DNA from: Aequorivita sp. CIP111184
Lineage (GTDB): Bacteria; Bacteroidota; Bacteroidia; Flavobacteriales; Flavobacteriaceae
Direction of reading: 5' to 3'
DNA: 64,000 bases
Assembly: GCF_900489465.1 (NCBI RefSeq)
Contig: NZ_UEFQ01000024.1
Coordinates: 1 to 64,000, forward strand
The translations under genes and the position numbers were made by a program. The notes below the pieces were generated by a model. It was not told where the DNA came from, did not search any database, and saw only the letters and a program-made list of their open reading frames with translations. Below are positions 34,621-61,806 of this stretch, piece by piece (position 1 is the first letter of the stretch; each line of letters opens with the position of its first letter).

Positions 34621-34744
34621 GGTGAATCTGTGAGTTTGTGAATCTGTGAATCTGTGAGTCTGTGAATGTGTGAATCTGTAAATGTGTGGATGTGTGGATG
34701 TGTGGATGTGTGGATGTGTGGATGTGTGGATGTGTGGATGTGTA
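34621..34744. repeat. GTGAAT/GTGGAT short-period array
   Basis: GTGAATCTGT-like decamers give way to at least seven copies of the octamer GTGTGGAT. The array lies in the divergent gap before the FAD dehydrogenase gene. Its word GTGAAT is the complement of ATTCAC, the word of the neighbouring array at 34768. Confidence 0.9.
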
Positions 34745-34767
34745 AATAATATATACTCACTAAATAA

Positions 34768-34880
34768 CTTATTCACCTATTCACCTATTCACTTATTCAC
34801 CTATTCACTTATTCACCTATTCACTTATTCACCTATTCACTTATTCACCTATTCCCTATTCACCTATTCACTTATTAACC
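34768..34880. repeat. ATTCACCT/ATTCACTT decamer array
   Basis: About ten to eleven copies of a 10-base unit, alternating TATTCACC and TTATTCAC forms, with one shortened unit (CTATTCCCTATTC). It is in the opposite sense to the array at 34621, so the two could pair as a long imperfect stem. There is no spacer structure as in CRISPR. Confidence 0.9.
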
Positions 34881-34974
34881 TAACAATCCAAACTCCGTTA
34901 AAAATTATCTAAACTTTCAACATAATTCTTTAAGTGAAACTGTAATTAGCTAATTTTAAGAAAAACCAAAAATT

Positions 34975-36258
34975 ATGAAAAAATATATACTTCTCTTGGC
35001 GCTTTGCACCTTTACTATCTATTCCTGCAAGTCGGAACAGAAAAAGAGTTCAGAAGAAATGGCAAACTCACAAATAAGCGAAACTGCCGATACTGTACAA
35101 ACGGCCATTGGACCATTAGTACTCCCAAAACCATTTGCCACTAAATCTGTAAGAAATTCCACAAAATTGGTAGATTGGCCCGAAGGAAAAATGCCAGTTG
35201 CGCCCGAAGGTTTTACAGTAACAAAATTTGCAGATGGTTTTAAAAACCCACGTTGGACTTACATTGCACCAAATGGAGATATGTTTGTTTGTGAAGCAAA
35301 CACACGCGGAAGTGCGGGACTCATAACTTTGCTACGCGATAAAGATGGCGATGGAACTGCAGAATTGCGCCAAACTTTTCTGGAAGATTTAAAACAACCT
35401 TTTGGGATGCTTGTAATTGACGATAGTTTTTACGTAGCTAATACTGATGGACTCTATAAATATCCATACACTAAAGGACAAACTTCATTAGAGGCCCAAA
35501 AAGGTGTAAAAATTGTTGAGCTACCAGCTGGTGGTTATAACAATCATTGGACAAGAAATATTATTACCAATGAAACCAAAGACAAAATATATATTTCCGT
35601 AGGTTCTGCCAGCAATGTCGCCGAGCACGGAATGGATGAGGAAGTACGTCGCGCAAATATTCTGGTGGTTGACCTAAACGGTCAAAATGAAAAAGTATAC
35701 GCCAGCGGTTTGCGAAATCCTGTCGGAATGGATTGGAACCCTATTAATGGTGAACTGTGGACGGCCGTAAATGAACGCGACAAACTTGGTGATAATTTGG
35801 TGCCTGATTATGTTACCAGTGTTAGGGAAGGCGGTTTTTACGGTTGGCCTTACTCCTATTACGGTCAGTTGAAAGATCCACGTATGGAGGGAAAAGGGAC
35901 TGATCTTGTTGCCAAAGCAATTGTACCAGACGTTTCAGTGGGACCACATACAGCTTCACTTGGCCTTACTTTTTATGATGCCAACAGCTTCCCTAAAAAA
36001 TATAAAAATGGATTATTTGTGGGACAGCATGGCTCTTGGAATCGGTCTGTTCTTTCTGGTTACAAAGTAGTTTTTGTTCCTTTTGAAGATGGAAAACCAT
36101 CGGATCAGCCCCAAGATTTCCTTACTGGATTTATTGCAGATGAAAATGCCTCCGAAGTATATGGAAGACCTGTTGGTGTTACCGTCACCCCAAAAGGTGA
36201 TTTACTGGTAAATGATGATGCGGGAAACGTTATTTGGAAAGTGAGTTATAATAAGTAA
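34975..36258 (+). CDS. PQQ-type sorbosone/glucose dehydrogenase-like lipoprotein
   Basis: 427 residues. The lipoprotein signal has lipobox TIYSCKS (Cys18). The six-bladed beta-propeller resembles GSDH/L-sorbosone dehydrogenases: GFTVTKFADGFKNPRW, MFVCEANTRGSAG, VYASGLRNPVGMDWNP, VREGGFYGWPYSYYG and FVGQHGSWNRS are all typical. Members bind PQQ or Ca and oxidise aldoses or sorbosone in the periplasm, but many have no tested substrate. It sits before a TonB-dependent receptor gene 108 bases away; the two might act in uptake and oxidation of one compound, which is speculative. Confidence 0.88.
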   Translation: MKKYILLLALCTFTIYSCKSEQKKSSEEMANSQISETADTVQTAIGPLVLPKPFATKSVRNSTKLVDWPEGKMPVAPEGFTVTKFADGFKNPRWTYIAPNGDMFVCEANTRGSAGLITLLRDKDGDGTAELRQTFLEDLKQPFGMLVIDDSFYVANTDGLYKYPYTKGQTSLEAQKGVKIVELPAGGYNNHWTRNIITNETKDKIYISVGSASNVAEHGMDEEVRRANILVVDLNGQNEKVYASGLRNPVGMDWNPINGELWTAVNERDKLGDNLVPDYVTSVREGGFYGWPYSYYGQLKDPRMEGKGTDLVAKAIVPDVSVGPHTASLGLTFYDANSFPKKYKNGLFVGQHGSWNRSVLSGYKVVFVPFEDGKPSDQPQDFLTGFIADENASEVYGRPVGVTVTPKGDLLVNDDAGNVIWKVSYNK

Positions 36259-36366
36259 AAAGTGAATTTGTGAATTAGGAAATGCATGTACCAATAAGAT
36301 TTGATTCTTGGCAATTGGCAAATGGTTATCGCTATATCCTTCGCTCTTAAAAAACTATAATAAATA

Positions 36367-38658
36367 ATGAAGTTACTTCTTCAAAAAACATTGGCGGTTA
36401 TATTTGTGACCGCCTTTTTTAATTTTTCATTCGGGCAAACTATTGAAGGATCTGTTTTTTCCGAAGAAAACCTTCCTATTGAAAATGTTTCCGTTTTTTT
36501 TAAAAATAAAGAAATTACTAAAACCGACAAAAATGGCTCTTTTACTCTTCCAGAAAAATTCAAATTACCACTTTCGCTCCGGTTTGAGCATCCAGATTAT
36601 TTTATAAAAAATGCTGAAGTCACAGAAAATAAAATGATTTTCAACCTTTCTCATCTTTCAAAAAATGAAAATCTGGAAGAAGTAATTATTTCCTCCACAT
36701 ATCAAAAGCAAAGCGAGGTTATAATTCCTACTTCAAAAATTACTTCAGAAAAATTTGAGGAATACAGTCCCATAGATTTGGTTTTGGCAATCAATGAAAT
36801 ACCTGGAGTTTTTATTCAAAGTGGCGCTATAAATACCAACAGAATTGTAATTCGCGGAGTGGGTTCACGAACACTTTACGGCACTAATAAAATTCGCGCT
36901 TATTTTAACGGAATTCCCATTACCAATGGCGCGGGCGAAACCGCTATAGATATTTTCGATCCCGAAGATCTAGAAAATATTGAAATAATAAAAGGACCAA
37001 AAGCCACACAATATGGCACCAATCTCGGGGGGACTTTGCTTCTCAATTCCAAACAAGCGCCGGGACGCGAATCTTTATTGAAAAGCAATTTAACAGTAGG
37101 CTCCTTCCGAATGATAAAAAACTCAGTTTCTGTAGCAACATCCTTTGAGAAATTTTCACTTAATCTAAATTATGATCATTTGGAAACAGAGGGATTTCGG
37201 GACAACAGCAATTATGATAGAAAAACTTTGCTACTTACTTCAAAATATACTTTCAATTCAAAAAACCAACTTTCTATCTTGGTAAATTATATAGATTATT
37301 TTGCGCAAATTCCAAGTTCCATAGGAAAGACCGCTTTTATGGAAAATCCGAAAGCAGCCGCTTTTACCTGGGCACAGGCACAAGGATTTGAGGATAATAA
37401 ACAAACCCTTGCCGGCTTGAGCTTTACCCATCGATTTTCTGAAGATTTCAGTAATACGAGCAGCGTTTTTTACACCTATTTGGATCATTACGAGCCGCGT
37501 CCTTTCAATATTCTAGACGAGTTTACAAATGGCTATGGCGCGCGAACTGTTTTCGCAAAAGACTTCATTTTTCTGAAAAACAAAGCCAATATCAGTTTTG
37601 GAGGGGAATTTTATAAAGATGAATACAACTGGAATACCATTGAAAATTTATACGAAGAAAACAATGGCAACGGAAGTTTGGAGGGCAGTCAGTTAAGTGA
37701 TAATTTAGAAATTCGCGACAATTTGAATGTATTCGCAACTGTAACATTACCTTTTACAGAAAAATTTAAAGCACAACTTGGCCTTAATTTTAATACTACA
37801 CAGTATGATTTTAAGGATGAGTACAATTTTGATGAAATTGATAAAAGCGCCAAGCGAAATTTCGATCCAATCTTGGCGCCCAATCTCAACCTTTTATATC
37901 AATTTACTTCGGATATAAGTTCGTATTTCAATTTTAGCAAAGGTTTTAATTATCCGTCCATCGAAGAAACACTTACTCCGGAAGGAGTTATAAATCCTGA
38001 GCTGGGGCCCGAAAAAGGATTTAATTATGAATTGGGAAGCGAGCTATTCTTCTTCAAAAGAAAACTTCATTTGCAAGTAGCTGCTTATTTTTTAAAAATA
38101 GAAGATTTATTAGTGGCAGAACGCGTTGGCGAAGATCAATATATTGGTCGGAATGCGGGGAAAACAGCACATAAAGGCATTGAGATCAGTACAGAATATA
38201 CTATTCCTGTCAATGCAAATTTTTACGTTTCTCCCTTTTTAAACGCAGAATTCAACAATCATAAATTTATTGATTTTGTTGATGGGGAAGATAGTTTTTC
38301 GGGCAACCAACTTACGGGAGTTCCGAATAAAAAAGTGAATGGTGGAATTAATTTAGGATTTAAAAATTTGAGATTGAATACCAATTTTCTTCACATTGGT
38401 GAAATTCCCCTAAACGATTCTAATTCTCTTTATTCAGAAAAATACACTGTTTTCAACACAAAAGCTTCCTATAAAAAAGAACTTTCTAAAAAGCTTTCTT
38501 TAAAAATAAACGTAGGCATCAGCAATTTCACAAATGAAAAATACGCATCATCCGTATTGATAAATGCCACAAGTTTTGGTAATTCAGAACCTCGCTATTA
38601 TTATCCGGGAATGCCAAGAAATTGGTTTGGGGGAGTAATGGTTAACTATAAGATGTGA
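36367..38658 (+). CDS. TonB-dependent outer-membrane receptor
   Basis: 763 residues. After a signal peptide (to about FSFGQ) comes a carboxypeptidase-regulatory-like beta domain (EGSVFSEENLPIENVSVFFK), then a plug domain (about 115-230) with NEIPGVFIQSGAINTNRIVI and IEIIKGPKATQYGTNLGG, and a 22-strand barrel. The layout fits FecA/siderophore-type or small-substrate receptors rather than SusC, as no SusD gene is next to it and the length is below 1,000. It would import a ligand using TonB energy. The ligand is unknown. A regulator is not adjacent. Confidence 0.92.
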   Translation: MKLLLQKTLAVIFVTAFFNFSFGQTIEGSVFSEENLPIENVSVFFKNKEITKTDKNGSFTLPEKFKLPLSLRFEHPDYFIKNAEVTENKMIFNLSHLSKNENLEEVIISSTYQKQSEVIIPTSKITSEKFEEYSPIDLVLAINEIPGVFIQSGAINTNRIVIRGVGSRTLYGTNKIRAYFNGIPITNGAGETAIDIFDPEDLENIEIIKGPKATQYGTNLGGTLLLNSKQAPGRESLLKSNLTVGSFRMIKNSVSVATSFEKFSLNLNYDHLETEGFRDNSNYDRKTLLLTSKYTFNSKNQLSILVNYIDYFAQIPSSIGKTAFMENPKAAAFTWAQAQGFEDNKQTLAGLSFTHRFSEDFSNTSSVFYTYLDHYEPRPFNILDEFTNGYGARTVFAKDFIFLKNKANISFGGEFYKDEYNWNTIENLYEENNGNGSLEGSQLSDNLEIRDNLNVFATVTLPFTEKFKAQLGLNFNTTQYDFKDEYNFDEIDKSAKRNFDPILAPNLNLLYQFTSDISSYFNFSKGFNYPSIEETLTPEGVINPELGPEKGFNYELGSELFFFKRKLHLQVAAYFLKIEDLLVAERVGEDQYIGRNAGKTAHKGIEISTEYTIPVNANFYVSPFLNAEFNNHKFIDFVDGEDSFSGNQLTGVPNKKVNGGINLGFKNLRLNTNFLHIGEIPLNDSNSLYSEKYTVFNTKASYKKELSKKLSLKINVGISNFTNEKYASSVLINATSFGNSEPRYYYPGMPRNWFGGVMVNYKM

Positions 38659-38664
38659 GAATTT

Positions 38665-38695
38665 AGTATTGAGTATTGAGTATTGAGTATTGAGA
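38665..38695. repeat. TATTGAG heptamer array
   Basis: Four tandem copies of TATTGAG just after the TonB receptor stop codon, the same word family (AATACTAA/TATTGAG) as the array at 61711. Confidence 0.85.
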
Positions 38696-38810: not shown

Positions 38811-38913
38811 ATTCACTTACTCACAAACTCACCTACTCACAAATTCACAAACTCACAAACTCACAAACTCACAAACTCACAAACTCACACATTCACCAAT
38901 TCCCAAATTCCCC
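38811..38913. repeat. ACTCACAA decamer array upstream of lplA
   Basis: ATTCACTTACTCACAAACTC-type decamers, with five successive units ACAAACTCAC, then CACATTCACC and AATTCCC. It runs up to a TATCTTTA box (38914-38921) that could be the lplA -7 element, so the array occupies the upstream region of that promoter. Confidence 0.9.
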
Positions 38914-40709: not shown

Positions 40710-42047
40710 TTAGAATGAATAAGAATATGCAATTCCACCCCCTAAGAGTGTTTCGGAAATGTTAGAGAAATCAGCCCCAGCCATAATGGTAAACATCCCC
40801 AGTTTTGGGGTTTTGTAGGAAAGTGTTCCGTAATTATACCAATATTTCCAAGTAGGGTATATTGGCTTTCCGTAGGTGCCTAAGTAATTTGCATAGGTAC
40901 TTTTTAGCTTCCATTGAAAATTGTTGAATTTTCCCGTTACCCCGAAATGATGCACTTTTGAACGAGTACTTATAAAGGGTGTGTTGGTGCCATTAATCTC
41001 AACATTCTTATCAAAAAGGATAAACGGAATTCCGATAATGTTTTCTTCATACGTCCATCCGCTTCTATATATGGAATTGCTGAAGTAATTGTCCTTGCCA
41101 CTTCCTATAGAAATACCACTTTGATCTACAGTGTCTATATATTCATAAAGTACTGAAGATATTATGTTTTGATTTTTTGGTTTAAAATAAACACCCCATA
41201 AACCATCTGGAAAGTTTGCCCAACGGGTGCCAGACCCATCTTCTATATAATGATCATGGTAAAGGGAGAAATTTCCCCATGTATTTTCAAACTCATAATT
41301 GATTAAAATACTGCCTAAATGATTTCCTACTTTATTAATAGTCTCACCCTCTATTCCATATTCTTCTGCATTGTGGGCAAAAAATACATTCACATAATCC
41401 TTAAAGCCACTTTTTAATTTTCCCCAATCGGGAGAAGTGCCACCCCATTGGGCATAATGTTGTACACTTAAGGTCAGTTTATGATTTTCGTTAAATGTGG
41501 TGATTAAACCCAATCTTTTATAATGTAACTGGGTATTATCTACATAACGAGCATCATTCAATACATAATATCCAAATCCCCAATCTATTGCAAACGTATT
41601 GGAGATTTTGAAAGGATTATTGGCTTCTAAAAGAATTCCGGGTAAGGGCCGTGCATTACCTGACCATAAAAAGTTTTGATTGGTAGCGGAAAGTCCGTCC
41701 AGCACCTCAGTTTGCTTTTTTGCTCCAAGAGTAGCCAGCAACCAAGAATTTTCAAATTGAATATATAAATCCCTTCTTTGAATTGCATCTTCAACTCCAT
41801 CTCTTCCATAAATAGCTACACCTGCATTTAATTTAAACGAAGAAAAAGTAAGGTTAGCTTTTAAATCTGCCGTTACAGAAAGATTGCTTAGTTCGCCTAC
41901 CGAATTATTTGTATTCGTGTGAAACCAAAAGGGGTTTTCATCTTCCGTTGCTAGAATGGATTTTAACTCAACAGTACCGTCAATTCCTAATTCCTGTGAC
42001 AAAAGCTGTAAGGGTAATAGAAATATAATTATTACGTACGCTTTCAT
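40710..42047 (-). CDS. Capsule assembly Wzi family outer-membrane protein
   Basis: About 445 residues from ATG 42047 with signal peptide MKAYVIIIFLLPLQLLSQ; a longer frame would reach into wzc and is rejected. Many alternating amphipathic strands and aromatic residues fit an outer-membrane barrel of the Wzi kind, which anchors capsule at the surface. It ends TLLGGGIAYSYSF with a terminal Phe, as expected for BAM-inserted barrels. It is the last gene of the wza-wzc-wzi export unit. Wzi assignment rests on pattern and context. Confidence 0.82.
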   Translation of the reverse strand: MKAYVIIIFLLPLQLLSQELGIDGTVELKSILATEDENPFWFHTNTNNSVGELSNLSVTADLKANLTFSSFKLNAGVAIYGRDGVEDAIQRRDLYIQFENSWLLATLGAKKQTEVLDGLSATNQNFLWSGNARPLPGILLEANNPFKISNTFAIDWGFGYYVLNDARYVDNTQLHYKRLGLITTFNENHKLTLSVQHYAQWGGTSPDWGKLKSGFKDYVNVFFAHNAEEYGIEGETINKVGNHLGSILINYEFENTWGNFSLYHDHYIEDGSGTRWANFPDGLWGVYFKPKNQNIISSVLYEYIDTVDQSGISIGSGKDNYFSNSIYRSGWTYEENIIGIPFILFDKNVEINGTNTPFISTRSKVHHFGVTGKFNNFQWKLKSTYANYLGTYGKPIYPTWKYWYNYGTLSYKTPKLGMFTIMAGADFSNISETLLGGGIAYSYSF

Positions 42048-42057
42048 AAAAAAGAAT

Positions 42058-44439
42058 TTATCTATTGAATACTCTCTGTAGAAAAGAACGGTTTTCCTCA
42101 GAATAGGCGTAACCGTATTTATTTCCATAGCCAAAATTGTTTAAATCTACATTGTTAAGCACAATAGCTACATTAGCCAAACGCCCATCATTAATAGCGT
42201 CCTGTGGAAATTCTAACAAACGTTTATCAGTATAACCTGCGCGCACTACATACAGTGTGATATCTGCAAGTTTGTTAATTAAAATGGTATCAGTAACGAG
42301 CATGGATGGCGCCGTATCCATAATAATATAATCAAAATCTTTTTTAAGCTCTTCAATAAATTGGGTTGTTCGTTTTTGCATCAGCAACTCCGCCGGGTTT
42401 GGAGGTATGGCACCCGAAAGTACTATGCTTAAGTTTTCATTGTATTCGCTTTGATTCACAACATCATTTACTTGAATGTCATCGTAAACTATAAATTCGG
42501 TAAGTCCTTTTCTTGTCTTTAAATGATCCGGTAGATACCGCTGCAATTGGGGGTTACGAATATCAGCTCCAACCAAAGCCACCTTTTTACCAGTATTGGC
42601 AAGAGTCAAGGCTAAGTTAAAGGCAACAAAAGTCTTTCCTTCTCCTTTAATGGTTGAGGTGACAATCATGGTTTTCCCTCTCTCACTTTCTTCCAATTTA
42701 TTTATAAATAGATATTGCAGGTTAGTCCTTAATATTCTATAGGCTTCCGCCATTACACTGCGGTCATTATGCTGGATAAGATCTGAATCTCCTTTTTGTA
42801 CTTTCGGAATTTCACCGATTATAGGAATAGATTTTAACTGTTTTTCTACATCTTTCCTATTTTTCACTTTGGTACTAAGTAGATAAAAACTGTAAATACC
42901 ACCAAAAGGTATTAAAAGACCTGCAAGAAGAGCACCTAGATAAATAAGTGGTCTTTTTGGGGAAACTGGTTGTTGTGAACCGTAAGCCATATCCACAATC
43001 TTCGCCTTATCAGAAGTTGCTGCCAAAGCAATTGATGCTTCCTCGCGTTGCTGTAGCAAGAAAAGGTATAGCTGTTCCTTAATAGATTGCTGGCGCTCAA
43101 TACCTCTAAATATCTTTTCTTTTGCGGGAACCTGCGAAATTTTGGAACTGATAATATTTTCTTGGATATTTAAATCCTTCATCGCAATTTTTAATGCATT
43201 TTTAGAGTTTTCCAAACTTCCCAAAATATTGTTTCTCATTTGGGATATTTGCTCGTTCACACTCTTTACAACTGGATTTTTAGGAGTAGACGTTTGCAAA
43301 AGTTTGTTTCTATATAAAATAAGCTCATTATAATTGTTTACCGCAGTGCCTACATTCTCATTTGAAATACCAATATTGGCAGGTAGCAGCTCATCAGTAG
43401 AACTATTTTTCATGTAATCAATCATAGTATTGCTCAATTCCATTTGAGTGGAAACATCTAACTGTCTTTTATTGAAATCACTGGCATTTTCGAGTGTAAT
43501 CTGAGCCTCAGCTTGAATGTCTGTCAAGCGATTGGTACTTTTAAAATCTTCCTTATTGGTTTCTACTGAATCTAGCTCACGCGTTATAATCTGTAATCTC
43601 GATTCAATAAAGGCAGAAGTTTTCTTAGCTATCTCATTCCGGTCTTGTACCGCATCTTTATTGTACTGACTCACAAGATCATTTAAAAAATCTTCTCCTT
43701 TTTCTTTATTTTGAGTTTGAATTGAAAGCTCTACCACATTGCTTTTAGCATCAGCATTCAAAATGTTAACCCTCTCTTGAAATCCCAATGCTACATCTTC
43801 TACAGACTTATAACTTACAAGAACAGTTTTGTTTATGTATGATTCAAATCTCTCTGTATCTTCTAAATTTGGCAACACGGTTATATCACCAAAAACTAAA
43901 GAGATACTTTCTCCAAATTTATGGGTCGTTTTACTGCTTCTAGTTTCGTCTTCAATAATAAATTCAGAATCAGATAAAATTTCTAGGTACAAAGTAGGCA
44001 CTGGCTTACTTGAAAACGTTTCATTAAAAGTCTGAAAACGAACTACGAAAGGTTTATAGCCATAGATTTCGGAGGTTTTAATATTCCCCAATACTTCATA
44101 CTTTATATTAAGCTGAAGTTCCTTAACGGTTTCTGAAATTAGCCTTTTAGAGTTGAATATAGCCAACTCATTATCAATTTGGTTACTCTTAAAACGCGAC
44201 AGAAAACTACCAAACTGCGAAAAGGCAGCCATTTCTAGTGGACTTTGGGTCTTTTCGTCTTTTATAATGATTGTGGCCTTACTTTGATATAATTGTGGTG
44301 CATAGCGTAAATAAACAAAGGCAACTGCAAGTGCTATAATTACCCCTATTACAAAAAAATACCAATAACGCGCGTATTGGTCTATAAGCTCCCTTAGCGA
44401 AAGTTCGTCTGATTCTTGGTTATTCTGAATTTCCAACAT
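42058..44439 (-). CDS. Wzc-type polysaccharide co-polymerase and tyrosine kinase
   Basis: 793 residues. The N-terminal Wzz domain has membrane helices at about 30-50 and 495-515 with a long coiled coil between. The C-terminal BY-kinase has Walker A STIKGEGKT (about 592-600), Walker A' VALVGADIR and Walker B IIMDTAPS. The tail YGNKYGYAYSEENR is the Tyr cluster for autophosphorylation. This inner-membrane protein controls chain length and export of the polymer together with Wza. It lies between wza and wzi in one unit. No separate phosphatase gene (Wzb) is present in the window. Confidence 0.95.
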   Translation of the reverse strand: MLEIQNNQESDELSLRELIDQYARYWYFFVIGVIIALAVAFVYLRYAPQLYQSKATIIIKDEKTQSPLEMAAFSQFGSFLSRFKSNQIDNELAIFNSKRLISETVKELQLNIKYEVLGNIKTSEIYGYKPFVVRFQTFNETFSSKPVPTLYLEILSDSEFIIEDETRSSKTTHKFGESISLVFGDITVLPNLEDTERFESYINKTVLVSYKSVEDVALGFQERVNILNADAKSNVVELSIQTQNKEKGEDFLNDLVSQYNKDAVQDRNEIAKKTSAFIESRLQIITRELDSVETNKEDFKSTNRLTDIQAEAQITLENASDFNKRQLDVSTQMELSNTMIDYMKNSSTDELLPANIGISNENVGTAVNNYNELILYRNKLLQTSTPKNPVVKSVNEQISQMRNNILGSLENSKNALKIAMKDLNIQENIISSKISQVPAKEKIFRGIERQQSIKEQLYLFLLQQREEASIALAATSDKAKIVDMAYGSQQPVSPKRPLIYLGALLAGLLIPFGGIYSFYLLSTKVKNRKDVEKQLKSIPIIGEIPKVQKGDSDLIQHNDRSVMAEAYRILRTNLQYLFINKLEESERGKTMIVTSTIKGEGKTFVAFNLALTLANTGKKVALVGADIRNPQLQRYLPDHLKTRKGLTEFIVYDDIQVNDVVNQSEYNENLSIVLSGAIPPNPAELLMQKRTTQFIEELKKDFDYIIMDTAPSMLVTDTILINKLADITLYVVRAGYTDKRLLEFPQDAINDGRLANVAIVLNNVDLNNFGYGNKYGYAYSEENRSFLQRVFNR

Positions 44440-52652: not shown

Positions 52653-53816
52653 CTATTTCTTTTCTTCCAGTAGGCTCTGATACTCGGCTAGCAGAGCATC
52701 CCAAACCTGCTGCCTTTCGTAGCGGCTTGTTATTTGGATTCTCGCATTGCTTTTTAAGCGATTATAAAGTTCAATATCATTTATTAGTAATTGCATCGCT
52801 TCTGCTAATGCTTCAGTATTCTTAGGAGGAATTATTAATCCGTTTACGTTTGGGATTATAATTTCGTTACAGCCATTAATATCACTTACAATAGAGGGTA
52901 ATCCCATCGCGCCGGCTTGCATTGCAACATTGGGAAAACCTTCGCGATAACTAGGAAAAACTAAAGCATCTGCCGCTGCGAAATAAGGACGTACGTCGTT
53001 CTGATATCCAACCGAAATAATATTAGGGTTGTTTTCTATCGCAGTTATTGTCTCCCGTTTTAATGGATCTAGCTCCCCCTCAAAAGGACCAACCAATAAT
53101 AATTTCGAATCCTGAATTCTGAATTCTGAATTTAGTTTCGAAAAAGCTTGAACCAGTTCATTTATCCCTTTGTCTCCCACTAGACGCCCGACGAATACGA
53201 AGACAAAACTATCTGCCGGAATATTTAGTTCTTGGCGGAAAGTATTTCTCTTTGCAGTAAAAATTGAAGGATCAAAGTATTGGGTATTTATACCATTGCT
53301 ACTGCCCTGCCCTATTATTTTAAGCTTTTCTGGCTTGGCAAGGTTTTCAGCAACTATAAAATCATAAAGACCTTTGGAATTTGGATATACCTTAGTGGCA
53401 AATCTATAGGTAAGCTTTTCCACAAAGTCTAGTAATTTTCTTTTTTTGCCTGTGGCTTCCATCAGGGGAAGTCCGGCCACGGTATGCAATCTATTTGGGA
53501 TTCTGGCCAACCAAGCAGCCATCATCCCAACGATTCCTGCTTTTGGGGTATGGGTGTGGACAATTGTTGGTTTTTCTTTCTTAAAATATTTATATAGTTT
53601 ATAAAGTGATTTAATATCAGAGATAGGTGTTATTTGGCGAGTCATTTCAACGTGATAAGTTTCATAACCGTTATTCTTGCCTAAAACCTCCAAACTTTCT
53701 AAATCTGCCGAAATAGCAATTACCTGAAAATAATCTTGCATAAATTCAAGTTGTCCCTCAAGAAGCTTCTCAAGTGACATAGGTACAGTTGTAATACGGA
53801 TAAGTCTAGGCTTCAT
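52653..53816 (-). CDS. GT4 glycosyltransferase (PglA-like)
   Basis: 387 residues of a GT-B fold enzyme. The N-terminal domain holds HTHTPKAGIVGMMAAWLA and the C-terminal domain VFVFVGRLVGDKGINELVQA and SYREGFPNVAMQAGAMGLP. The beginning and HTHTPK match the PglA type, which adds GalNAc to undecaprenyl-diphospho-bacillosamine. Its EX7E motif reads EGFPNVAMQ, so the second Glu is Gln. It overlaps the neighbouring GT4 gene by 11 bases. With the PglFEDC homologues it suggests the second sugar of the repeat unit. Confidence 0.9.
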   Translation of the reverse strand: MKPRLIRITTVPMSLEKLLEGQLEFMQDYFQVIAISADLESLEVLGKNNGYETYHVEMTRQITPISDIKSLYKLYKYFKKEKPTIVHTHTPKAGIVGMMAAWLARIPNRLHTVAGLPLMEATGKKRKLLDFVEKLTYRFATKVYPNSKGLYDFIVAENLAKPEKLKIIGQGSSNGINTQYFDPSIFTAKRNTFRQELNIPADSFVFVFVGRLVGDKGINELVQAFSKLNSEFRIQDSKLLLVGPFEGELDPLKRETITAIENNPNIISVGYQNDVRPYFAAADALVFPSYREGFPNVAMQAGAMGLPSIVSDINGCNEIIIPNVNGLIIPPKNTEALAEAMQLLINDIELYNRLKSNARIQITSRYERQQVWDALLAEYQSLLEEKK

Positions 53817-54909
53817 TCAAATAAAAATCTATTTTAGAAACAAACGATTCTACACTTCTTGTATCTAATTCATCATCGAATAATTTTCTATTCTTTGTAT
53901 TATCAGTGACTAAGCATTTTTCCATCTGCGTCGCTAAATCATTTACATCATTAGTTTCTGATACATAAACTCCTTTTAAATTTTCAATGCCTCCAGCACA
54001 CTTAGTTGAAACTACGTTAGTATTTTGGGACATCATTTGAAGTAATACATTGGGGAAACCTTCGATTCGGGAAGAAACTACGCATAACTTTGCTTCTCTG
54101 AAATATGGATATATGTTATCTACAAAACCAGGCATCAAAATTTTATGTTTTAAACCTAAATCAGCTATTTTGCCTTCAAGTTTATTTCTTAGCAAGCCTT
54201 CACCAAAAATCACCAATTTATAATCAGGAAAATCAAAATGAAGAATAGCGAATGATTCAATTAAAATTTCATACCCTTTTTCTGGAATTAATCTTCCTGC
54301 GGAAACTATATATGGGCCATCAAACATTATTTTATTTATTTTAACTAAAGCCAAAGTTTTAATCTTTTCCAAGTCAAGCGGATTGCCAATAACCTCAATT
54401 TTAGTTGCCTTTTTAATCCAAGAAATCCCATTTATAAGCTGCTCCTTCATTAATTCACTTTGGCAAATAAGCAAATCTAATCCAGGATATCCATACCTAT
54501 ACTGAGTTTTGAAAATTTTCAATTTTAATCCATCAAATCTTGAAAATGTTGACGTAGATTCCCTGCCCACGTGGTATTTTGTTTTCAGAACATTGAGTCT
54601 TCTCATTAATCCTACCAAACCATTAGTATGAATATGTGATGTGAAAGTGTAATCGAAATTAATATGGCGCAACTTGTAGATACTTTTTATCACATTAAAA
54701 ACTCCATACCTTTCTTTATTACTAGCTCCATAGTATGAAATAAATTCCGACTTATCCCAAGCGCCTGATTTCCTTTTTTTAAAAAAAATAACAAAAACAC
54801 TAGCTACTTTCTTTTCTTTAAAATAATCTCCTAGAAGTTTTAAAAACTGTTCAGCTCCTCCAAGATTATCATTGGGTAAGACGATTAAGATTTTTTTCTT
54901 GTGACTCAC
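53806..54909 (-). CDS. GT4 family glycosyltransferase
   Basis: 367 residues. The opening KKILIVLPNDNLGGAEQFLK is a usual GT4 start, with YIVSAGRLIPEKGYEILIES and SSRIEGFPNVLLQMMSQNT in the C-terminal domain. As in its neighbour, the second Glu of EX7E is Gln. Sugar specificity cannot be told. It overlaps the wzy start by 4 bases and the next gene by 11 bases, so translation is coupled. Confidence 0.9.
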   Translation of the reverse strand: MSHKKKILIVLPNDNLGGAEQFLKLLGDYFKEKKVASVFVIFFKKRKSGAWDKSEFISYYGASNKERYGVFNVIKSIYKLRHINFDYTFTSHIHTNGLVGLMRRLNVLKTKYHVGRESTSTFSRFDGLKLKIFKTQYRYGYPGLDLLICQSELMKEQLINGISWIKKATKIEVIGNPLDLEKIKTLALVKINKIMFDGPYIVSAGRLIPEKGYEILIESFAILHFDFPDYKLVIFGEGLLRNKLEGKIADLGLKHKILMPGFVDNIYPYFREAKLCVVSSRIEGFPNVLLQMMSQNTNVVSTKCAGGIENLKGVYVSETNDVNDLATQMEKCLVTDNTKNRKLFDDELDTRSVESFVSKIDFYLNEA

Positions 54910-56207
54910 TGCTTTTGGCGTTGAATTTTATAAGTTGTAAAAAAGAATATTAAAAATAATATAAATGTAAAATTATAGAAATAGTTAGCTGGAAGACCAG
55001 TTCTAATCCAAATCATGCTGCTCACAATAAAATAAGCATAGATGTAAATATAATCAGCGTTTATTGCTGACACTTGTTTAAAGGTAACATCAAAAACTTT
55101 GAATAAAAAGCCCGTGAAATAAGAAACTAGAATAATTCCAATAAATCCTAAGCTATAAAAACCTTGCGCAAATATTCCTGGTGGTATGGACTTCACCGAC
55201 ACCCCAACCATATAAAAACTGTTTAAATAGTTACTGCCCACTATTCCTGGATTCCAAGATGAAGGAATTATCTTTCCGAAAGTACCAGAAACAAAATCCG
55301 AAAAAACAAAATAAGAATAATTCTCTTTTATTGAATATGATAAACTATAGTAAGGGAAGCCAAATTCATTCAATAATATTTCAAATATAGAGCTCGAGTA
55401 ATTTGCAGATGCTAGTGATCTATTAGAAAAAAAGAAATCAAGGATCGGAAGAAATAACAAAAATACAAACCCTAAAATTAAAATTTTCAAATTAAATATT
55501 TCTTTCCTTTTCAACATTGCTGAAAATAAAAATATAAGGATAAGGTCAAGAATTGACTGCCTCCCCGGGGAAAGATATAGATACAGAATAGATAAGACAA
55601 TAAGGGAAGTGATAATAATGAAAAATCTAACAACGTTATGAAGATTTTTATTAAAATAGAAAAAAAGTAATGGTATTATAGCAAGGAAAATAAATCTAAA
55701 AAAGAATGTATGAGCGGTGTCACCATCTTCAACGCTAATATAGTAACCAGACCGAACCAAATTAGCATTTTCAATAGCGTTTGACAATGAGCCAAAACCG
55801 GTAACGTAAAAATATAATCCTGCTAATGAGAATAAAAAGATAATAGATACATACAATTGAGGTAATCTTTGACGACCGAAGAACTTTGGCGATATTGCGA
55901 TTATTCGAATATTAACTCGCCGATTATAGCCAAGGAAAAAAAATATTATACCTAAACAAATACAAAAGAATGTAATAGTCATTAATTCAGTATTCCCTTG
56001 ATCAGGAACTATGTAAGCGATATTTAGACCACTTAATATTTCATAATTATAGACTGATAATGAAATTATAGGAGATACTATATAAAATAAAAAAAGATAT
56101 ATACACGAGTATGTAAAAAGAGACCACCCATCTTTACGTAACCTACGTAGTAAGGAGACGAAAAAAAATACACCAATTAAAATATAAAATATAATAAGAA
56201 TAATCAT
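54906..56207 (-). CDS. O-antigen/capsule polymerase (Wzy-like)
   Basis: 433 residues with about eleven hydrophobic helices and a long periplasmic loop (about 280-350). It shows no signature strong enough to name, as is usual for Wzy, but a polytopic protein of this size between glycosyltransferases and a flippase is best read as the repeat-unit polymerase. It lies in the same unit as the GT4 genes, with a 4-base overlap. It would join lipid-linked units on the periplasmic face. Confidence 0.85.
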   Translation of the reverse strand: MIILIIFYILIGVFFFVSLLRRLRKDGWSLFTYSCIYLFLFYIVSPIISLSVYNYEILSGLNIAYIVPDQGNTELMTITFFCICLGIIFFFLGYNRRVNIRIIAISPKFFGRQRLPQLYVSIIFLFSLAGLYFYVTGFGSLSNAIENANLVRSGYYISVEDGDTAHTFFFRFIFLAIIPLLFFYFNKNLHNVVRFFIIITSLIVLSILYLYLSPGRQSILDLILIFLFSAMLKRKEIFNLKILILGFVFLLFLPILDFFFSNRSLASANYSSSIFEILLNEFGFPYYSLSYSIKENYSYFVFSDFVSGTFGKIIPSSWNPGIVGSNYLNSFYMVGVSVKSIPPGIFAQGFYSLGFIGIILVSYFTGFLFKVFDVTFKQVSAINADYIYIYAYFIVSSMIWIRTGLPANYFYNFTFILFLIFFFTTYKIQRQKQ

Positions 56208-56290
56208 TATATGTCTCTAAGTAGTTTATATCAAAGATTATTGAAAACTAAATTATTGGTAATATTAATTATTTTCTAGAAACTCTAATA

Positions 56291-57322
56291 TCAAAATTTG
56301 TCAGACTCAATTATTCCATTAATTAAATTCTCAATTATCCATTCCTGTGGATTAAAAATGCCACCGGTCCAACTTAAATTATTATTCCAGTATCCAGGAC
56401 ATTTGTCATAGGCATGAACTGAATATCCAAAACTGATTTCTACAATTAATGGATTATTATTGGCGTCAAAAACAAAGTCAAAAGCAATACTTTGAGATTT
56501 GATTTTCTTATTAACTTTAAAGGCTATTTTCACACACCTTTCATCTACCGCCTCTTTATCATAAATAATAACTCCACTACCAGAAGCTCTGAAATCTCTC
56601 GCTCGAGTCATTCTTTTTAAGCCAAAAGCTCTATCGCCTATTACTACGATCCTTATATCAAATGAATTATCAGGAATAAAATCTTGGAAATAAACATAAC
56701 CCTTCTCGTATTGTGACATTTTTTCAAAATCATTTGGTCGCAATAATCTTGAAATACCGCCAAAAACAGTTTTAATGGAGGCGGTTCCCTGTCTGTATTT
56801 ATTAATTCGATCACTTAAACCGTACCAAGGATCATGTTGAGCAAAACCTTTTCCAAAAGATTTTTTAATCAACTTTTTGCAATTATCCACACTACGCACT
56901 AACCGCACATTCTGCCCTCCAGCCCCGCCTCGAAGTTTGAAGACTTTAGGATAAGTTGTATTGTTTGCCCAAAGTAGTGCAGATTGTTCGTCATAAAAAA
57001 TAGATGTAGGCACTGATGGAGCCCCTACAGCTTCCAATAAATATTTCTGTCCAATCTTGTCGTCAAAATGCCATGCAGTATTAAAATTCGGAAACACCTG
57101 AAGGCCTGATTGTTCTAAAGAAAATAACAACCCTTTTGCAAAAACTGCATCCCCATAGTTATTGTGATGGTGATGCCATAACAGTCCAGAACAATCCTTC
57201 AATTGTTCTACGATATCAACACTATAGCAATTTACAATTTTGAAATCAATATTTTTGTCTTCGCAGTAAACTATCCATCTATCTGAAAAACTATCCTTTC
57301 TGTTGTGAATTGCTATTTTCAT
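56291..57322 (-). CDS. ATP-grasp family ligase-like protein
   Basis: 343 residues with an N-terminal pre-grasp fold (MKIAIHNRKDSFSDRWIVYC) and ATP-grasp elements: KVFKLRGGAGGQNVRLV (about 126-142) as the ATP-binding loop, FQDFIPDNSFDIRIVVIGD with Lys/Arg contacts, and DFVFDANNNPLIVEISFGYS with the metal-binding Asp/Glu. It resembles RimK/glutathione synthase folds. Its place between wzy and wzx suggests a substituent, such as an amino acid linked to a uronic acid of the repeat unit. The substrate is an inference and no acceptor motif is known to me. It overlaps wzx by 4 bases. Confidence 0.8.
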   Translation of the reverse strand: MKIAIHNRKDSFSDRWIVYCEDKNIDFKIVNCYSVDIVEQLKDCSGLLWHHHHNNYGDAVFAKGLLFSLEQSGLQVFPNFNTAWHFDDKIGQKYLLEAVGAPSVPTSIFYDEQSALLWANNTTYPKVFKLRGGAGGQNVRLVRSVDNCKKLIKKSFGKGFAQHDPWYGLSDRINKYRQGTASIKTVFGGISRLLRPNDFEKMSQYEKGYVYFQDFIPDNSFDIRIVVIGDRAFGLKRMTRARDFRASGSGVIIYDKEAVDERCVKIAFKVNKKIKSQSIAFDFVFDANNNPLIVEISFGYSVHAYDKCPGYWNNNLSWTGGIFNPQEWIIENLINGIIESDKF

Positions 57323-58557
57323 TTAATACGTTTTTTATATTTATAAAATAACCCTAAACCCATCATCCATCTGGAAAGACTCAAGTTAAGCGCGGCGCCT
57401 ATTATTCCAAAATAAAAAATAAGAGGAAAGGCTAAGACGAAACCAATCATAGATGAAATAATAGTGTTTTTCATAACAAGTTTATCTTGCCTATTTATTA
57501 TGAAATAATTTACGCCGTAAATATTGTACAGAGTATATCCGATCAACCCCAATGCTAATATTGCAAGAATCGTAAAAGCATTATCATCCTGTATGTTTAA
57601 ATACCAAAAAACTAACTTATAGGAAACTAGACACAGTGCTGTAAGAATTATTGAAACTGCCAACATTAACTTTTTATATCTCAAGAACGCATGCTTTTTT
57701 CTATTAAGAAAAGGAAAGAAGACTCGTGATAATATTTCTATCAAACTAACACAGAAATTAATAATAATTTTAATAGCATTAAACACACCAACGAAAGTAT
57801 TGTTTGTGAGTATGCCTAGCAGAAAAGTGCTTGTATTGTTATATAAAGTAGGAACGAATTGATTAATAAATATAGGAACATTACCCTTAATTGTTTGAAC
57901 AATGATTCGGGGCTTCAACCATAAAAATTTTAATTTATACTTTCTGACCAAAATAAATTGACCTACCAAACCAGCACCCACAAAACCAGCACTCTGTAAT
58001 AGAGGAAAAATCCAATAATCTGTTTCTTTCTTTATAAAAATAAATATGCAAATGGTGAAGAATAGCTTAATCCCTAAATTTAAAAAAGTGATATACTTCA
58101 TTTTTTCAATTCCTTGAAAAAACCATTCTGGAAAAAGAGCTTGCCCCAATAACATTGGAACAGTCAGAAAATATATCAATCTATTTTCATAAAAGGGTTT
58201 GTAACTATAAACTACTATAGTTATAATTATAAAAGAAAGAAGAAGGAAAATTGCCTTTATCGTTAAAACCTTACTGTATATTAGATTTAATTTTTCGGGA
58301 CTATCTTTAAATATTGCTACATCTCGTGTAGCTGTATATTTGAAACTAAAATCGGTTAAGGCAGTAAAATAAGCTATTAAAGAGGCCGCGAAGACAATTG
58401 TTCCATAATTTTCAAATCCTAAAACACGAAGAACATAAGGTAATGTTATTAAAGGAAGGATCATTCCCACCAGTTGTAATGCTGATAGCGAAATAAAGTT
58501 TTCCAAAAGGACCTTCGCATCCTTTCCCTTAAACAGATTCCTTAGTTTTTTAAACAC
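57319..58557 (-). CDS. Oligosaccharide flippase (Wzx-like)
   Basis: 412 residues with about 12-14 hydrophobic helices of the MOP (polysaccharide transport) family: LQLVGMILPLITLPYVLRVLG and ENYGTIVFAASLIAYFTALT are typical of Wzx. It flips the undecaprenyl-linked repeat unit to the periplasm for Wzy. It lies between the epimerase gene and the ATP-grasp gene with which it overlaps. No substrate can be assigned. Confidence 0.93.
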   Translation of the reverse strand: MFKKLRNLFKGKDAKVLLENFISLSALQLVGMILPLITLPYVLRVLGFENYGTIVFAASLIAYFTALTDFSFKYTATRDVAIFKDSPEKLNLIYSKVLTIKAIFLLLSFIIITIVVYSYKPFYENRLIYFLTVPMLLGQALFPEWFFQGIEKMKYITFLNLGIKLFFTICIFIFIKKETDYWIFPLLQSAGFVGAGLVGQFILVRKYKLKFLWLKPRIIVQTIKGNVPIFINQFVPTLYNNTSTFLLGILTNNTFVGVFNAIKIIINFCVSLIEILSRVFFPFLNRKKHAFLRYKKLMLAVSIILTALCLVSYKLVFWYLNIQDDNAFTILAILALGLIGYTLYNIYGVNYFIINRQDKLVMKNTIISSMIGFVLAFPLIFYFGIIGAALNLSLSRWMMGLGLFYKYKKRIK

Positions 58558-58579
58558 GCGTTCTTATTCAACAATAATA

Positions 58580-59578
58580 TTATCCCAAATTCCCCCAATA
58601 CCATTCCACCGCCTCTTCAATACCTTTGTCAATGGTATGGCTAGGGGTATAGCATAAAAGTCTTTCCGCCTTCTCCACAGAAGCCAAAGAATGTGGAATA
58701 TCCCCCTTGCGGTTTGGCCCGTGCTTAATTTCAACCTCTGCAATAGCGGGGTCAAAGGTGCTTAAATGCTTTTTAAGCAATTCAGTAAGCTGTACCAAGG
58801 TAGTTCTGTCGCCTACTGCCGTGTTGTACACTTGGTTGAGTGCTGCCTCATTTTCGGTGGTGATGGCTAAAAGGTTCATCTGTACCACATTGTCTATATA
58901 GGTAAAATCGCGGGAGTAACTGCCATCGCCATTAATAAGCGGGCTTTCGTGCTCCATAAACTGTTTTACAAATAGCGGGATTACCGCCGCATAAGCGCCG
59001 TTGGGATCTTGGCGTCTGCCAAAAACATTAAAATATCGCAAGCCAATGGTGTTTAGGCCGTAGCTATTGTAAAAATTCTCGGCATAAAGTTCGTTTACAT
59101 ATTTGGTGATAGCATAAGGCGATAAGGGTTTCCCTATTACATCCTCCACCTTTGGCAAAGCCTCACTATCGCCATACGTAGAACTACTGGCGGCATATAC
59201 AAAACGTTTTACCCCTGCATCGCGTGCTGCTACCAGCATATTTAAAAATCCGCTTACGTTAACCTCGTTGGAGGTAATGGGATCGATAATAGAGCGCGGC
59301 ACCGAGCCGAGCGCTGCTTGGTGCAGCACAAAGTCTTGCCCTTTGCAGGCAGTATTGCAGGTTTTCAGATCGCGTATATCGCCTTCTATCAACTTAAAGT
59401 TTTCATCCGACAAAAAGGGCCCAATATTATGCTTATGCCCGGTAGCGAAGTTGTCTAGGCAGGTTACGTTTGCCCCTATTTTCAAAAGCGCCTCCACGAG
59501 GTTGGAACCGATAAAGCCGGCGCCGCCTGTGACGAGTATATTTTTATTTGCTAGGACTTGGAATTGTGTGTAATCCAT
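58580..59578 (-). CDS. UDP-GlcNAc(A) 4-epimerase (TviC/WbpP type)
   Basis: 332 residues of the SDR extended family. TGGAGFIGSNLVEAL (about 17-31) binds NAD, and SSSTYG with SPYAITKYVNE give the catalytic Ser and Tyr-x3-Lys. HQAALGSVPRSI and YFNVFGRRQDPNGAYAAVIP fit the TviC/WbpP group, which epimerises UDP-GlcNAc or UDP-GlcNAcA at C4. Next to the 6-dehydrogenase it would give UDP-GalNAcA. It is followed by wzx after 22 bases. Confidence 0.93.
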   Translation of the reverse strand: MDYTQFQVLANKNILVTGGAGFIGSNLVEALLKIGANVTCLDNFATGHKHNIGPFLSDENFKLIEGDIRDLKTCNTACKGQDFVLHQAALGSVPRSIIDPITSNEVNVSGFLNMLVAARDAGVKRFVYAASSSTYGDSEALPKVEDVIGKPLSPYAITKYVNELYAENFYNSYGLNTIGLRYFNVFGRRQDPNGAYAAVIPLFVKQFMEHESPLINGDGSYSRDFTYIDNVVQMNLLAITTENEAALNQVYNTAVGDRTTLVQLTELLKKHLSTFDPAIAEVEIKHGPNRKGDIPHSLASVEKAERLLCYTPSHTIDKGIEEAVEWYWGNLG

Positions 59579-59601
59579 TACTTTTTGGTTAATTTGGGAT
59601 T

Positions 59602-59674
59602 AGTGATGCGTGATTCGTGATTCGTGATTCGTGATTCGTGATTCGTGATGCGTGAATCGTAAATCGTAAATCGT
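59602..59674. repeat. GTGATTC heptamer array
   Basis: Five successive copies of GTGATTC flanked by GTGATGC and GTGAATC variants, then AAATCGT repeats. It lies just upstream of the epimerase gene start. Confidence 0.9.
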
Positions 59675-59680
59675 TACTTA

Positions 59681-59735
59681 TCAACTTCGTTGATTCGTTA
59701 TTCTTTACTTCATTACTTCTCAACTTCGTTGATTC
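59681..59735. repeat. Two copies of TCAACTTCGTTGATTC
   Basis: Identical 16-base copies at 59681-59696 and 59720-59735. Each holds the inverted repeat TCAAC-TTC-GTTGA, a small 5-bp hairpin. Confidence 0.8.
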
Positions 59736-59810
59736 TCTGATTAGTATTCGTTATTTTTTAAGCTAGTGGTTTGTTATTTCGTTCCCATTTCATGAATCGC
59801 AGATTCCCGA

Positions 59811-59828
59811 TCCCGATAGCTATCTGGA
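59811..59828. repeat. Dispersed palindrome, copy with one mismatch
   Basis: TCCCGATAGCTATCTGGA, as at 48944 and 59884. Confidence 0.75.
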
Positions 59829-59883
59829 AACAAATCGCGAATCCCGTTTTCCGAATATCAATCCCAGTCTACCGAATCCCGAA

Positions 59884-59901
59884 TCCCGATAGCTATCGGG
59901 A
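59884..59901. repeat. Dispersed palindrome, perfect copy
   Basis: TCCCGATAGCTATCGGGA, a perfect 18-base palindrome. Confidence 0.85.
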
Positions 59902-59928
59902 AACGATTCCCAAATCACGCTTTCCAAA

Positions 59929-61314
59929 TTACAACTTAGCCGTTGCGTTTTCAAGAACGCCTTTCACGTCATAAACTATCGCCATTTCTTTTTTAAACGG
60001 CTCCAGGTCCAGTTTTAAAAATTCGTTATGCGCTACTCCTAAAACGATGGCGTCAAATTGGCCTTGTTTGAGGGAAGCGGTGGTTTCTATACCGTATTCG
60101 TGTTTTACTTCTACTGGGTTTGCCCACGGGTCGTAAGTGGTTACTTTTACGCCGTAGTCGCACAGGGCTTTTATCACGTCTACTATTTTAGTATTGCGTA
60201 CATCGGGGCAGTTTTCCTTAAAGGTAACGCCCAGCATTAGCACTTCTGCAGAGCTGATGGCGATGTTTTTTTTGATCATACACTTTATTACCTGACTGGC
60301 TACATATTCGCCCATGGAATCGTTCAATCTTCTTCCCGCCAAAATAATTTCTGGGTGATAGCCTTTCTCCTGCGCCTTTTGCGCTAAATAATATGGGTCA
60401 ACACCTATACAATGCCCACCGACCAAGCCGGGTTTAAAGGGCAAAAAGTTCCATTTGGTGCCTGCCGCCTTTAGCACTTCGTGGGTATCGATTTCCAAGA
60501 GGTTGAATATTTTTGCAAGTTCGTTCACGAAAGCAATGTTAATATCGCGCTGCGAATTCTCAATCACTTTTGCAGCCTCAGCCACTTTGATGCTGGGGGC
60601 TAAATATGTACCGCCGGTAATAACCGAAGCGTAAAGGGCATCGATCTCCTTGGCCGCCTCTGGGGTTGAACCCGCGGTTATTTTAAGTATTTTATCTACG
60701 GTATGCTCCTTATCGCCAGGATTAATACGCTCTGGAGAATAGCCAACAAAAAAGTCTGTATTAAAAGTTAGGCCGCTTATCTTCTCAAGGACGGGTACAC
60801 ATTCGTCTTCTGTTACCCCGGGATAAACTGTTGATTCATAAATAACCGTATCGCCTTTCTTAATAACTCTGCCAACAGTTTCACTTGCTGCGTATAAAGG
60901 GTTAAGTACGGGTCTATTGTTTTTATCAACGGGTGTAGGTACTGTTATTATATAGTAGTTGCAATTTTGGATATCCATTAAATCGCTAGTACAAAACAAA
61001 CCCTTTTTAGTTTTATCAGTGGTTATGTCAATGCCCTTTTCTTCCAATAGGTCATTTAAGTCGCCCATAGGCATACTTTTTAGCAGTACTTTTTGTAATA
61101 CATCATCTGCAACTTCTAGAGTACTGTCATGGCCCTTTTGAAGTGCCTCTACCCTATTTTTATTGATATCGAAACCTATAACTTGATATTTTGTTGCGAA
61201 AAGTCTGGCCAAGGGTAGCCCAACATAGCCAAGACCTATAATGGCGATTTTCACGGAGTTATCTGCTCCTATTTCCTGTAATTTTAACTTTGGTGATTTT
61301 TCAACTACTCGCAT
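59929..61314 (-). CDS. UDP-sugar 6-dehydrogenase (TviB/WbpO type)
   Basis: 461 residues. IAIIGLGYVGLPLARLFA (about 23-40) binds NAD, YIITVPTPVDKNNRP marks the family, and the catalytic Cys is in GLVGGHCIGVDPYYLA. Two-fold oxidation of UDP-GlcNAc (or GalNAc) to the uronic acid is predicted. It is the first gene of the long glycan operon, about 80 bases after a promoter-like element. It may begin at a later codon, as most relatives lack the N-terminal 20 residues. Confidence 0.93.
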   Translation of the reverse strand: MRVVEKSPKLKLQEIGADNSVKIAIIGLGYVGLPLARLFATKYQVIGFDINKNRVEALQKGHDSTLEVADDVLQKVLLKSMPMGDLNDLLEEKGIDITTDKTKKGLFCTSDLMDIQNCNYYIITVPTPVDKNNRPVLNPLYAASETVGRVIKKGDTVIYESTVYPGVTEDECVPVLEKISGLTFNTDFFVGYSPERINPGDKEHTVDKILKITAGSTPEAAKEIDALYASVITGGTYLAPSIKVAEAAKVIENSQRDINIAFVNELAKIFNLLEIDTHEVLKAAGTKWNFLPFKPGLVGGHCIGVDPYYLAQKAQEKGYHPEIILAGRRLNDSMGEYVASQVIKCMIKKNIAISSAEVLMLGVTFKENCPDVRNTKIVDVIKALCDYGVKVTTYDPWANPVEVKHEYGIETTASLKQGQFDAIVLGVAHNEFLKLDLEPFKKEMAIVYDVKGVLENATAKL

Positions 61315-61398
61315 GCTTCTTTTTCATATATATGTTAAATTCCAAACTCATTGATATCCAAATTGATAAAACCAACTCATCAAAAAATTTTGAAGCCG

Positions 61399-61406
61399 CA
61401 AAGATA
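61399..61406 (-). promoter_or_regulatory. Candidate promoter of the glycan synthesis operon
   Basis: On the minus strand TATCTTTGCGGC contains TATCTTTG, a full TAnnTTTG match, about 85 bases before the ATG of the dehydrogenase gene. The position 19 bases upstream reads ATCG/TTTA rather than TTG, so the upstream box is weak. Confidence 0.5.
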
Positions 61407-61613
61407 AAAAACCTCTTTCGATAAAGTGGTAGCTTTTAACGTTAAAATGTATAAGTAGTTTTTAATGAAAATAAAATCAAAATAGAAATAGAACTATTTG
61501 AATTTATGCATCTAACCCACAATAACAATCGGGATTAAAACCGGAATCGAAATTCCAATCTTGAATAACTCAAAGTTAACCAACAGAAAACAGACAACAG
61601 ACAACTGATAACT

Positions 61614-61670
61614 GTGAATAGGTGAATAGGTAAATAGGTGAATAGGTGAATAGGTGAATAGGTGAATAGG
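61614..61670. repeat. GTGAATAG octamer array
   Basis: Seven copies of the octamer GTGAATAG, one changed to GTAAATAG. It shares GTGAAT with the array at 34621. Confidence 0.9.
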
Positions 61671-61710
61671 AAAGTATATAAATTATTTATAAGCTGTCAA
61701 CCTATTCCAG

Positions 61711-61806
61711 TACTAAACAATAATCACTAAATACTAACTACTCAATACTAACTACTCAATACTAACTACTCACTACTAACTTCTCAATACTAACTACTCA
61801 ATACTA
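61711..61806. repeat. ACTAACTACTCAAT 14-bp array at the cysN stop codon
   Basis: About five units of 14 bases (ACTAACTACTCAAT with variants). It runs into cysN, and its ACTA supplies the TAG stop codon of that gene. Confidence 0.9.

Follow-up and report, generated by a model that had tools for sequence, protein, structure and literature searches.

The window analyzed here is a 64,000-nucleotide stretch of the Aequorivita sp. CIP111184 genome (contig NZ_UEFQ01000024.1, positions 1 to 64,000), which was chosen by an earlier reading of its sequence and not at random. Between 34.6 and 61.8 kb it carries eight tandem arrays with periods of 7 and 8 or multiples of these, as determined with Tandem Repeats Finder (TRF), together with a surface-polysaccharide locus of the Wzx type (40710..61314, − strand). 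The locus includes genes for Wzi, Wzz/AAA, Wza (Poly_export), CapD-like, DegT and PglD proteins, two GT4 proteins, Wzx, an epimerase and a UDP-sugar dehydrogenase, and its conserved parts are syntenic in the relatives G001 and G011. The arrays both flank and interrupt it. All eight share TGA[A/G/T]T. In five of them the unit is an octamer made of GTGA[A/G]T plus two variable bases, repeated head to tail without spacers, while the remaining three have a period of 7 (one as a 14-mer) and the words TGAGTAT, TGAGTA/TTAGTA and TGATTCG. Genes were called as longest ORFs, and distances to start codons are approximate.

The first array (34618..34747, + strand) comprises about 16 GTGA[AG]TNN units, for which TRF reports the 8-mer GTGAATCT as well as a period of 24, and contains a run of GTGGATGT. 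It ends 22 bp before the start of an FAD protein gene (− strand), just past the TATCTTTG promoter-like box of that gene. Head to head with it is a second octamer array (34770..34882, −; about 14 GTGAATA[GA] units; TRF periods 8 and 16), located upstream of a GSDH-like gene on the + strand. A heptamer array of TGAGTAT (38656..38694, +; period 7) begins at the stop codon of a TonB-dependent receptor gene, and 11 octamers of GTGAGTTT, which read ACTCACAA on the + strand (38819..38907, −; period 8), are found 32 bp upstream of the lipoate-protein ligase (LplA) gene, where they adjoin TATCTTTA. Nine GTGA[AG]TAT units (48961..49032, −; TRF periods 8 and 22) sit between genes of the polysaccharide locus, with an aligned array in G011 and a 28-mer repeat in the G001 spacer. 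Nine GTGATTC heptamers, equivalent to the TGATTCG word (59598..59660, +; period 7), are separated by 20 bp from the start of the epimerase gene (−). In the spacer that divides the UDP-sugar dehydrogenase gene from the CysN-like gene, seven octamers of GTGAATAG (61614..61670, +; period 8) are head to head with a heptamer array in which TGAGTA[GT] alternates with TTAGTA[GT] (61726..61806, −; TRF period 14, or 2 × 7) and which overlaps the stop codon of the CysN-like gene.

An earlier note on this sequence had listed where the arrays begin, and TRF agrees with all eight starts to within 15 bases. The note gave periods of 8 or 10 for the arrays with ATTCAC; TRF recovers the 8 and no 10-base period. 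It gave 7 or 14 for the others, which we also obtain, but the words it took to be different are close to the same core. In agreement with the note, TRF detects no core-bearing array over the first 34 kb. Over contig positions 1-384000, a stretch ended at 384 kb because the octamer pattern had a match there, one further core array exceeds a TRF score of 50, at 382.5 kb. Units of 7-8 bp set head to tail without spacers support the note's view that these are neither CRISPR nor transposon remains, and the longer repeats and unique spacers of a CRISPR are not found in the window arrays. No known RNA family was identified, with 0 Rfam matches at gathering score in 33000-64000.

Other features of the region and the genome were observed alongside the arrays. 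A 435-bp tandem repeat of 2.9 copies (11657-12920) lies inside a 2494-aa ORF on the − strand. G001 and G011 have the same flanks but lack the 5.4 kb block (27666-33059) that lies between them here and encodes a LuxR-TPR protein, an OmpA-family protein and others; both have a short array in the junction spacer where the block is missing. Inside the polysaccharide locus, an AAA_14/DUF4143 ATPase gene (50525-52283) shares 94% protein identity with G001, above its neighbors, and may perhaps be a recent transfer. On contig C38 of this genome (L057, 15286-18364), a reverse transcriptase (PF00078) gene precedes a DUF2130 gene and an octamer array, GATTGTTG. Four of this genome's contig ends (the end of C16 and the starts of C22, C33 and C36) fall in or at most ~35 bases from TGAGTAG heptamer arrays, and arrays therefore probably break assemblies.

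Occurrence and unit structure of the arrays

No array of period 24 or less at TRF score 50 was found in Markov shuffles (one first-order shuffle per locus). Genome-wide, the octamer pattern (~3.5 units) gave 40 overlapping matches versus 0 for the reversed pattern, and a mixed 7/8 pattern with one or two spacer bases gave 120 overlapping matches versus 0 and picked up at least two more octamer sites in other parts of the genome. The heptamer pattern matched 72 times versus 65 for its reversed control, which is uninformative, as TGAGT is unchanged by reversal. Among arrays rich in the TGA[AG]T word, 88 of 100 are outside ORFs of at least 100 codons (simple ORF call).

Of 28 Aequorivita genomes searched, 18 have octamer arrays of at least ~3.5 units (the present genome among them), versus 2 for the reversed control. 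Among 397 genomes of the family they occur in 11, three of Aequorivita and eight in seven other genera, and the reversed word occurs in 0 of the 397. Phylum-wide, 9 of 395 genomes have them, six of these outside the family, where the reversed control is positive in 10; outside the Flavobacteriaceae the octamer word has no advantage over its reverse. From these family, genus and phylum counts and their controls, we conclude that preference for the octamer word is a family feature that is strongest in the genus. The class is not genome-specific, as had been suggested, and the eight non-Aequorivita genomes also rule out exclusivity to the genus.

Intergenic exact tandem runs numbered 15, 11 and 13 at periods 7, 8 and 14 in an even sample of G001, and 0-3 at periods 4-6 and 9-12. 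At the same three periods there were 14, 2 and 3 runs in 13 named Aequorivita loci, where period 8 is not raised (2 runs) when G011 is left aside; 6, 10 and 8 in the 384 kb of this contig, falling to only 1, 2 and 5 outside 34-62 kb, where the peak is absent; 2, 0 and 6 in 19 loci of other Flavobacteriaceae; and 9, 1 and 9 in other Bacteroidota. Because the counts differ between samples, we consider the 7-8 bp excess to be real but uneven along the genome.

Within the units, variation is mostly at positions 5, 7 and 8. In 45 octamer arrays (418 units), which entered the set on how well their units matched GTGA.T on average, a rule that favors a conserved core, and some of which are mutual orthologues, the minority fraction at positions 1-8 was 3.3, 4.1, 4.5, 6.7, 19.6, 2.6, 24.2 and 18.4%, and the number of polymorphic arrays was 3, 3, 5, 7, 17, 3, 22 and 18; 11 of 13 different consensus units in this set keep GTGA.T. 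When the one four-unit run demanded by the search was dropped from each array, the remaining 270 units gave 5, 6, 7, 10, 19, 4, 27 and 20%. Admission by consensus only (51 arrays, 436 units) gave polymorphic counts of 2, 3, 5, 7, 17, 4, 23 and 20. The pattern is less sharp in samples not chosen by it, with minority fractions of 3, 7, 7, 14, 16, 5, 20 and 24% in 13 such octamer arrays and 7, 12, 9, 21, 16, 9, 22 and 16% in the six of this contig. By these fractions, the pooled set shows core restriction clearly, and this contig on its own shows it weakly. Arrays of period 8, 16 or 24 taken without the pattern at TRF score 40 (from the 384 kb of this contig, the G011 FAD locus, the named FAD loci and the G001 even sample) have a GTGA.T consensus in 13 of 18 cases and lack the core in five; other octamer words are present among unselected arrays and elsewhere. 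The polymorphic counts of 29 heptamer arrays were 8, 1, 6, 3, 6, 11 and 10 at positions 1-7, and core arrays are C-poor on the GTGA strand. The unit consensus and the variation counts bear out the common seed word proposed in the earlier note, in the sense that the arrays form a class sharing one core word.

We considered whether GTGA[AG]T could be the recognition core of a putative DNA- or RNA-binding protein that would control or insulate flanking genes, with the 7- or 8-bp pitch set by one or two free bases and the arrays adjoining promoters and stop codons. Position-restricted variation in the 45 and 51 octamer arrays, the same word at the same site across several species and the lack of the reversed word among the 397 family genomes are all consistent with binding, as is a promoter-like TAnnTTT[GA] box separating the array from the start codon in 13 of 19 hand-picked start-side arrays, a raw count with no background rate. 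However, the positional contrast weakens in the 13 arrays and the six in this contig that were not chosen by pattern, 5 of 18 unselected octamer-type arrays are without the core, the neighboring genes are unrelated, and relatives carry the same genes with no array, making binding sites an unlikely explanation. Equally improbable is a fuller form of the recognition-core reading, in which a putative Flavobacteriaceae protein, or a single-strand enzyme with 7-8 nt steps, would bind or extend the units and so amplify the core at many unrelated intergenic sites with a 7- or 8-bp pitch, with the units sometimes head to head at promoters and the spacer bases free to vary.

Length change at orthologous sites and the polysaccharide locus

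Most stretches from relatives were sampled because they matched the core pattern, and a protein scan with the FAD-dependent protein found Aequorivita records at 86-95% identity. The spacer upstream of the FAD gene is 253 bp in G011 versus 128 bp in A. antarctica, and the 125-bp difference is made up of 77 bp (11 AGCCAAG heptamers, 13 versus 2) and 48 bp (six octamers). The last 79 bp, which contain the TATCTTTG box, are identical in the two, and the far-end 19 bp have one mismatch. Upstream of LplA, the same octamer is present in 11 units here, 21 in G001, 13 in G011 and 5 in A. soesokkakensis. Its place is taken by CTTTTCG-like heptamers in A. antarctica and L086, and L083 and L113 have a 42-bp spacer without repeats. 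Upstream of CysN, the octamer is found in G001 and G014, with GCTTTAA-type repeats in this genome. This genome and G004 have one octamer in common at the FTHFS site, in 6.6 and 11.6 units, respectively. These comparisons, which are between species with one genome per species, demonstrate a whole-unit difference at FAD, unit-number differences at two further sites and, at one site, words that differ between species. The growth in place proposed in the earlier note is supported to the extent that length changes in place, by whole units at one orthologous site.

Octamer sites, merged when less than 500 bp apart, fall in the orthologous polysaccharide locus in 4 of 10 cases in this genome, 7 of 10 in G001, 5 of 5 in G008 and 6 of 16 in G011, counts for which the patterns differ per genome and the bounds were set after seeing the sites. 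The locus represents 0.8-2.2% of each of these four genomes, and inheritance accounts for part of the sites that this genome shares with G001 and G011. In G014 and G805, arrays occur at the CysN flank of the locus, and G804 has one octamer site 6 kb from its CapD-like gene. An array cluster on contig C12 of G804 was also considered as a polysaccharide locus, which failed as the CapD-like gene is on C51. Among the sites listed, none is at the locus in G003, G004, G005, G006, G010, G017 or G802, some of whose assemblies are fragmented. A tight link of arrays to polysaccharide loci as a rule of the genus was rejected. Elsewhere arrays are found at housekeeping genes, for example FTHFS and DapB.

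It is conceivable that the arrays provide homology for swapping sugar-coat cassettes or neighboring genes. Crowding at the orthologous locus in four genomes would fit, as would the absence of the 5.4 kb block in G001 and G011 and of the GSDH and cupredoxin genes in G011, with an array in each junction spacer. However, L079, L083, L084, L086, L088, L113 and L118 are without the same genes and without a junction array, seven genomes lack a listed octamer site at the locus, and arrays also occur at housekeeping genes, so we regard a function as recombination joints as quite improbable. Gene-loss scars as a cause of arrays were rejected, since some junctions have an array and several in other species do not. 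The surface locus, together with promoter-like boxes beside arrays whose lengths differ by whole units between species, could also suggest phase variation, in which arrays abutting promoters would act as length-variable switches of polysaccharide and other genes. This too has little likelihood, given that the FAD and LplA arrays are upstream of the promoter-like box and not inside it, and that several array sites are at housekeeping genes.

Array orientation and proposed growth by slippage

All 7 opposed pairs of core arrays less than 200 bp apart in 1.73 Mb are head to head, and one further pair brings this to 8 of 8; two of the eight are orthologous to others, leaving six distinct sites (two-sided sign test, 0.031). 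Fourteen neighbor pairs of core arrays share one direction. In this survey the reversed-motif control found 46 arrays versus 110, and TGAGT reads the same backwards. Relative to gene borders, we counted 23 sense and 12 antisense arrays within 150 bp of stops and 20 antisense and 13 sense near starts (Fisher P 0.051), with four contrary rows that look like one orthologous site counted separately; outward orientation of all arrays was rejected as being a tendency only. The head-to-head orientation and the surface-polysaccharide locus are additions to the earlier note. Five pairs were folded, of which three are far better than shuffles (z −10.1, −6.0 and −8.3) and two are not (z −1.9 and −0.5). 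Unit exchange between the two arms of a pair was not seen by eye, and the arms differ in their free bases. Large hairpins serving as transcription stops or cruciforms would account for the eight head-to-head pairs at six sites and the three strong folds, but opposed orientation itself yields such folds, the other two pairs fold poorly, the 34.6 kb pair needs no terminator because it is between divergent genes, and 14 neighbor pairs run in one direction with most arrays single, making this very improbable.

We favor the interpretation that these arrays have grown by slippage and represent a core-restricted variant of the heptamer-type long simple sequence repeats already known; to this we assign a probability of roughly 0.64. 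New arrays would form in intergenic DNA and would gain or lose whole units when strands slip or re-anneal out of register, with genes and promoter cores kept free of them by purifying selection. The core may be kept as the stretch that re-pairs when strands misalign, while other positions drift, and crowding at the polysaccharide locus may reflect old array sites retained in a fast-changing region instead of selection for switching. Slippage fits the whole-unit changes, the 7-8 bp excess, the intergenic confinement and the turnover of words. Against it, this contig shows no period peak beyond the 34-62 kb region, and the named loci show no rise at period 8 once G011 is set aside. Slippage alone also leaves unexplained the head-to-head rule and the retention of the core next to freer positions 5, 7 and 8.

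Relation to known repeats

Heptamer arrays in Aequorivita sublithincola are already in print (MacGregor 2015, PMC4679880). That paper describes TAACTGA direct repeats in Beggiatoaceae, cyanobacteria and some Bacteroidetes. A. sublithincola is among the hosts and carries other heptamers in those same spacers; in A. capsosiphonis the spacers are shorter and have no obvious repeats. It also reports that slippage was proposed for long simple sequence repeats with units of 5-11 nt (Mrazek 2007, as reported in PMC4679880). Our search of the open-access literature found no further paper on Aequorivita tandem repeats and none on octamer repeats in flavobacteria. As to why heptamer arrays occur in scattered bacterial groups, these sources offer proposals and not tests. 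In Aequorivita, comparing orthologous sites between species makes it possible to follow how arrays grow, are lost or have their word replaced, and free versus fixed unit positions could tell slippage from binding.

Like the TAACTGA repeats, the window arrays have short periods, are intergenic and are near starts and stops. They differ from them in the unit, which is GTGA[AG]T plus one or two bases, in the octamer period with variation at few positions, in crowding at a polysaccharide locus in some genomes and in the head-to-head pairs; none of the eight window arrays has TAACTGA as its unit. The short tandemly repeated repetitive (STRR) sequences of filamentous cyanobacteria are usually 7-bp repeats in promoters and intergenic regions, with no known function (PMC2670836). 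Set beside them without a comparison of words, our arrays are likewise short intergenic repeats, although STRR belong to another phylum and octamers are present here. Proximity to surface-structure genes is shared with the simple-repeat tracts of phase variation (PMC11868660), from which the FAD and LplA arrays differ in being upstream of a promoter-like box. The closest match is to the long simple sequence repeats and STRR-like arrays, as the units are short (within 5-11 nt) and beyond chance and mainly non-coding (88 of 100); length change by whole units was also found, at one site and between species only. Unlike the long simple sequence repeats as reported from Mrazek 2007, however, many arrays here have one core in common, and there is an 8-bp class rich in that core. 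We conclude that this kind of repeat is itself known and that the traits particular to the variant are its GTGA[AG]T core word and 8-base spacing.
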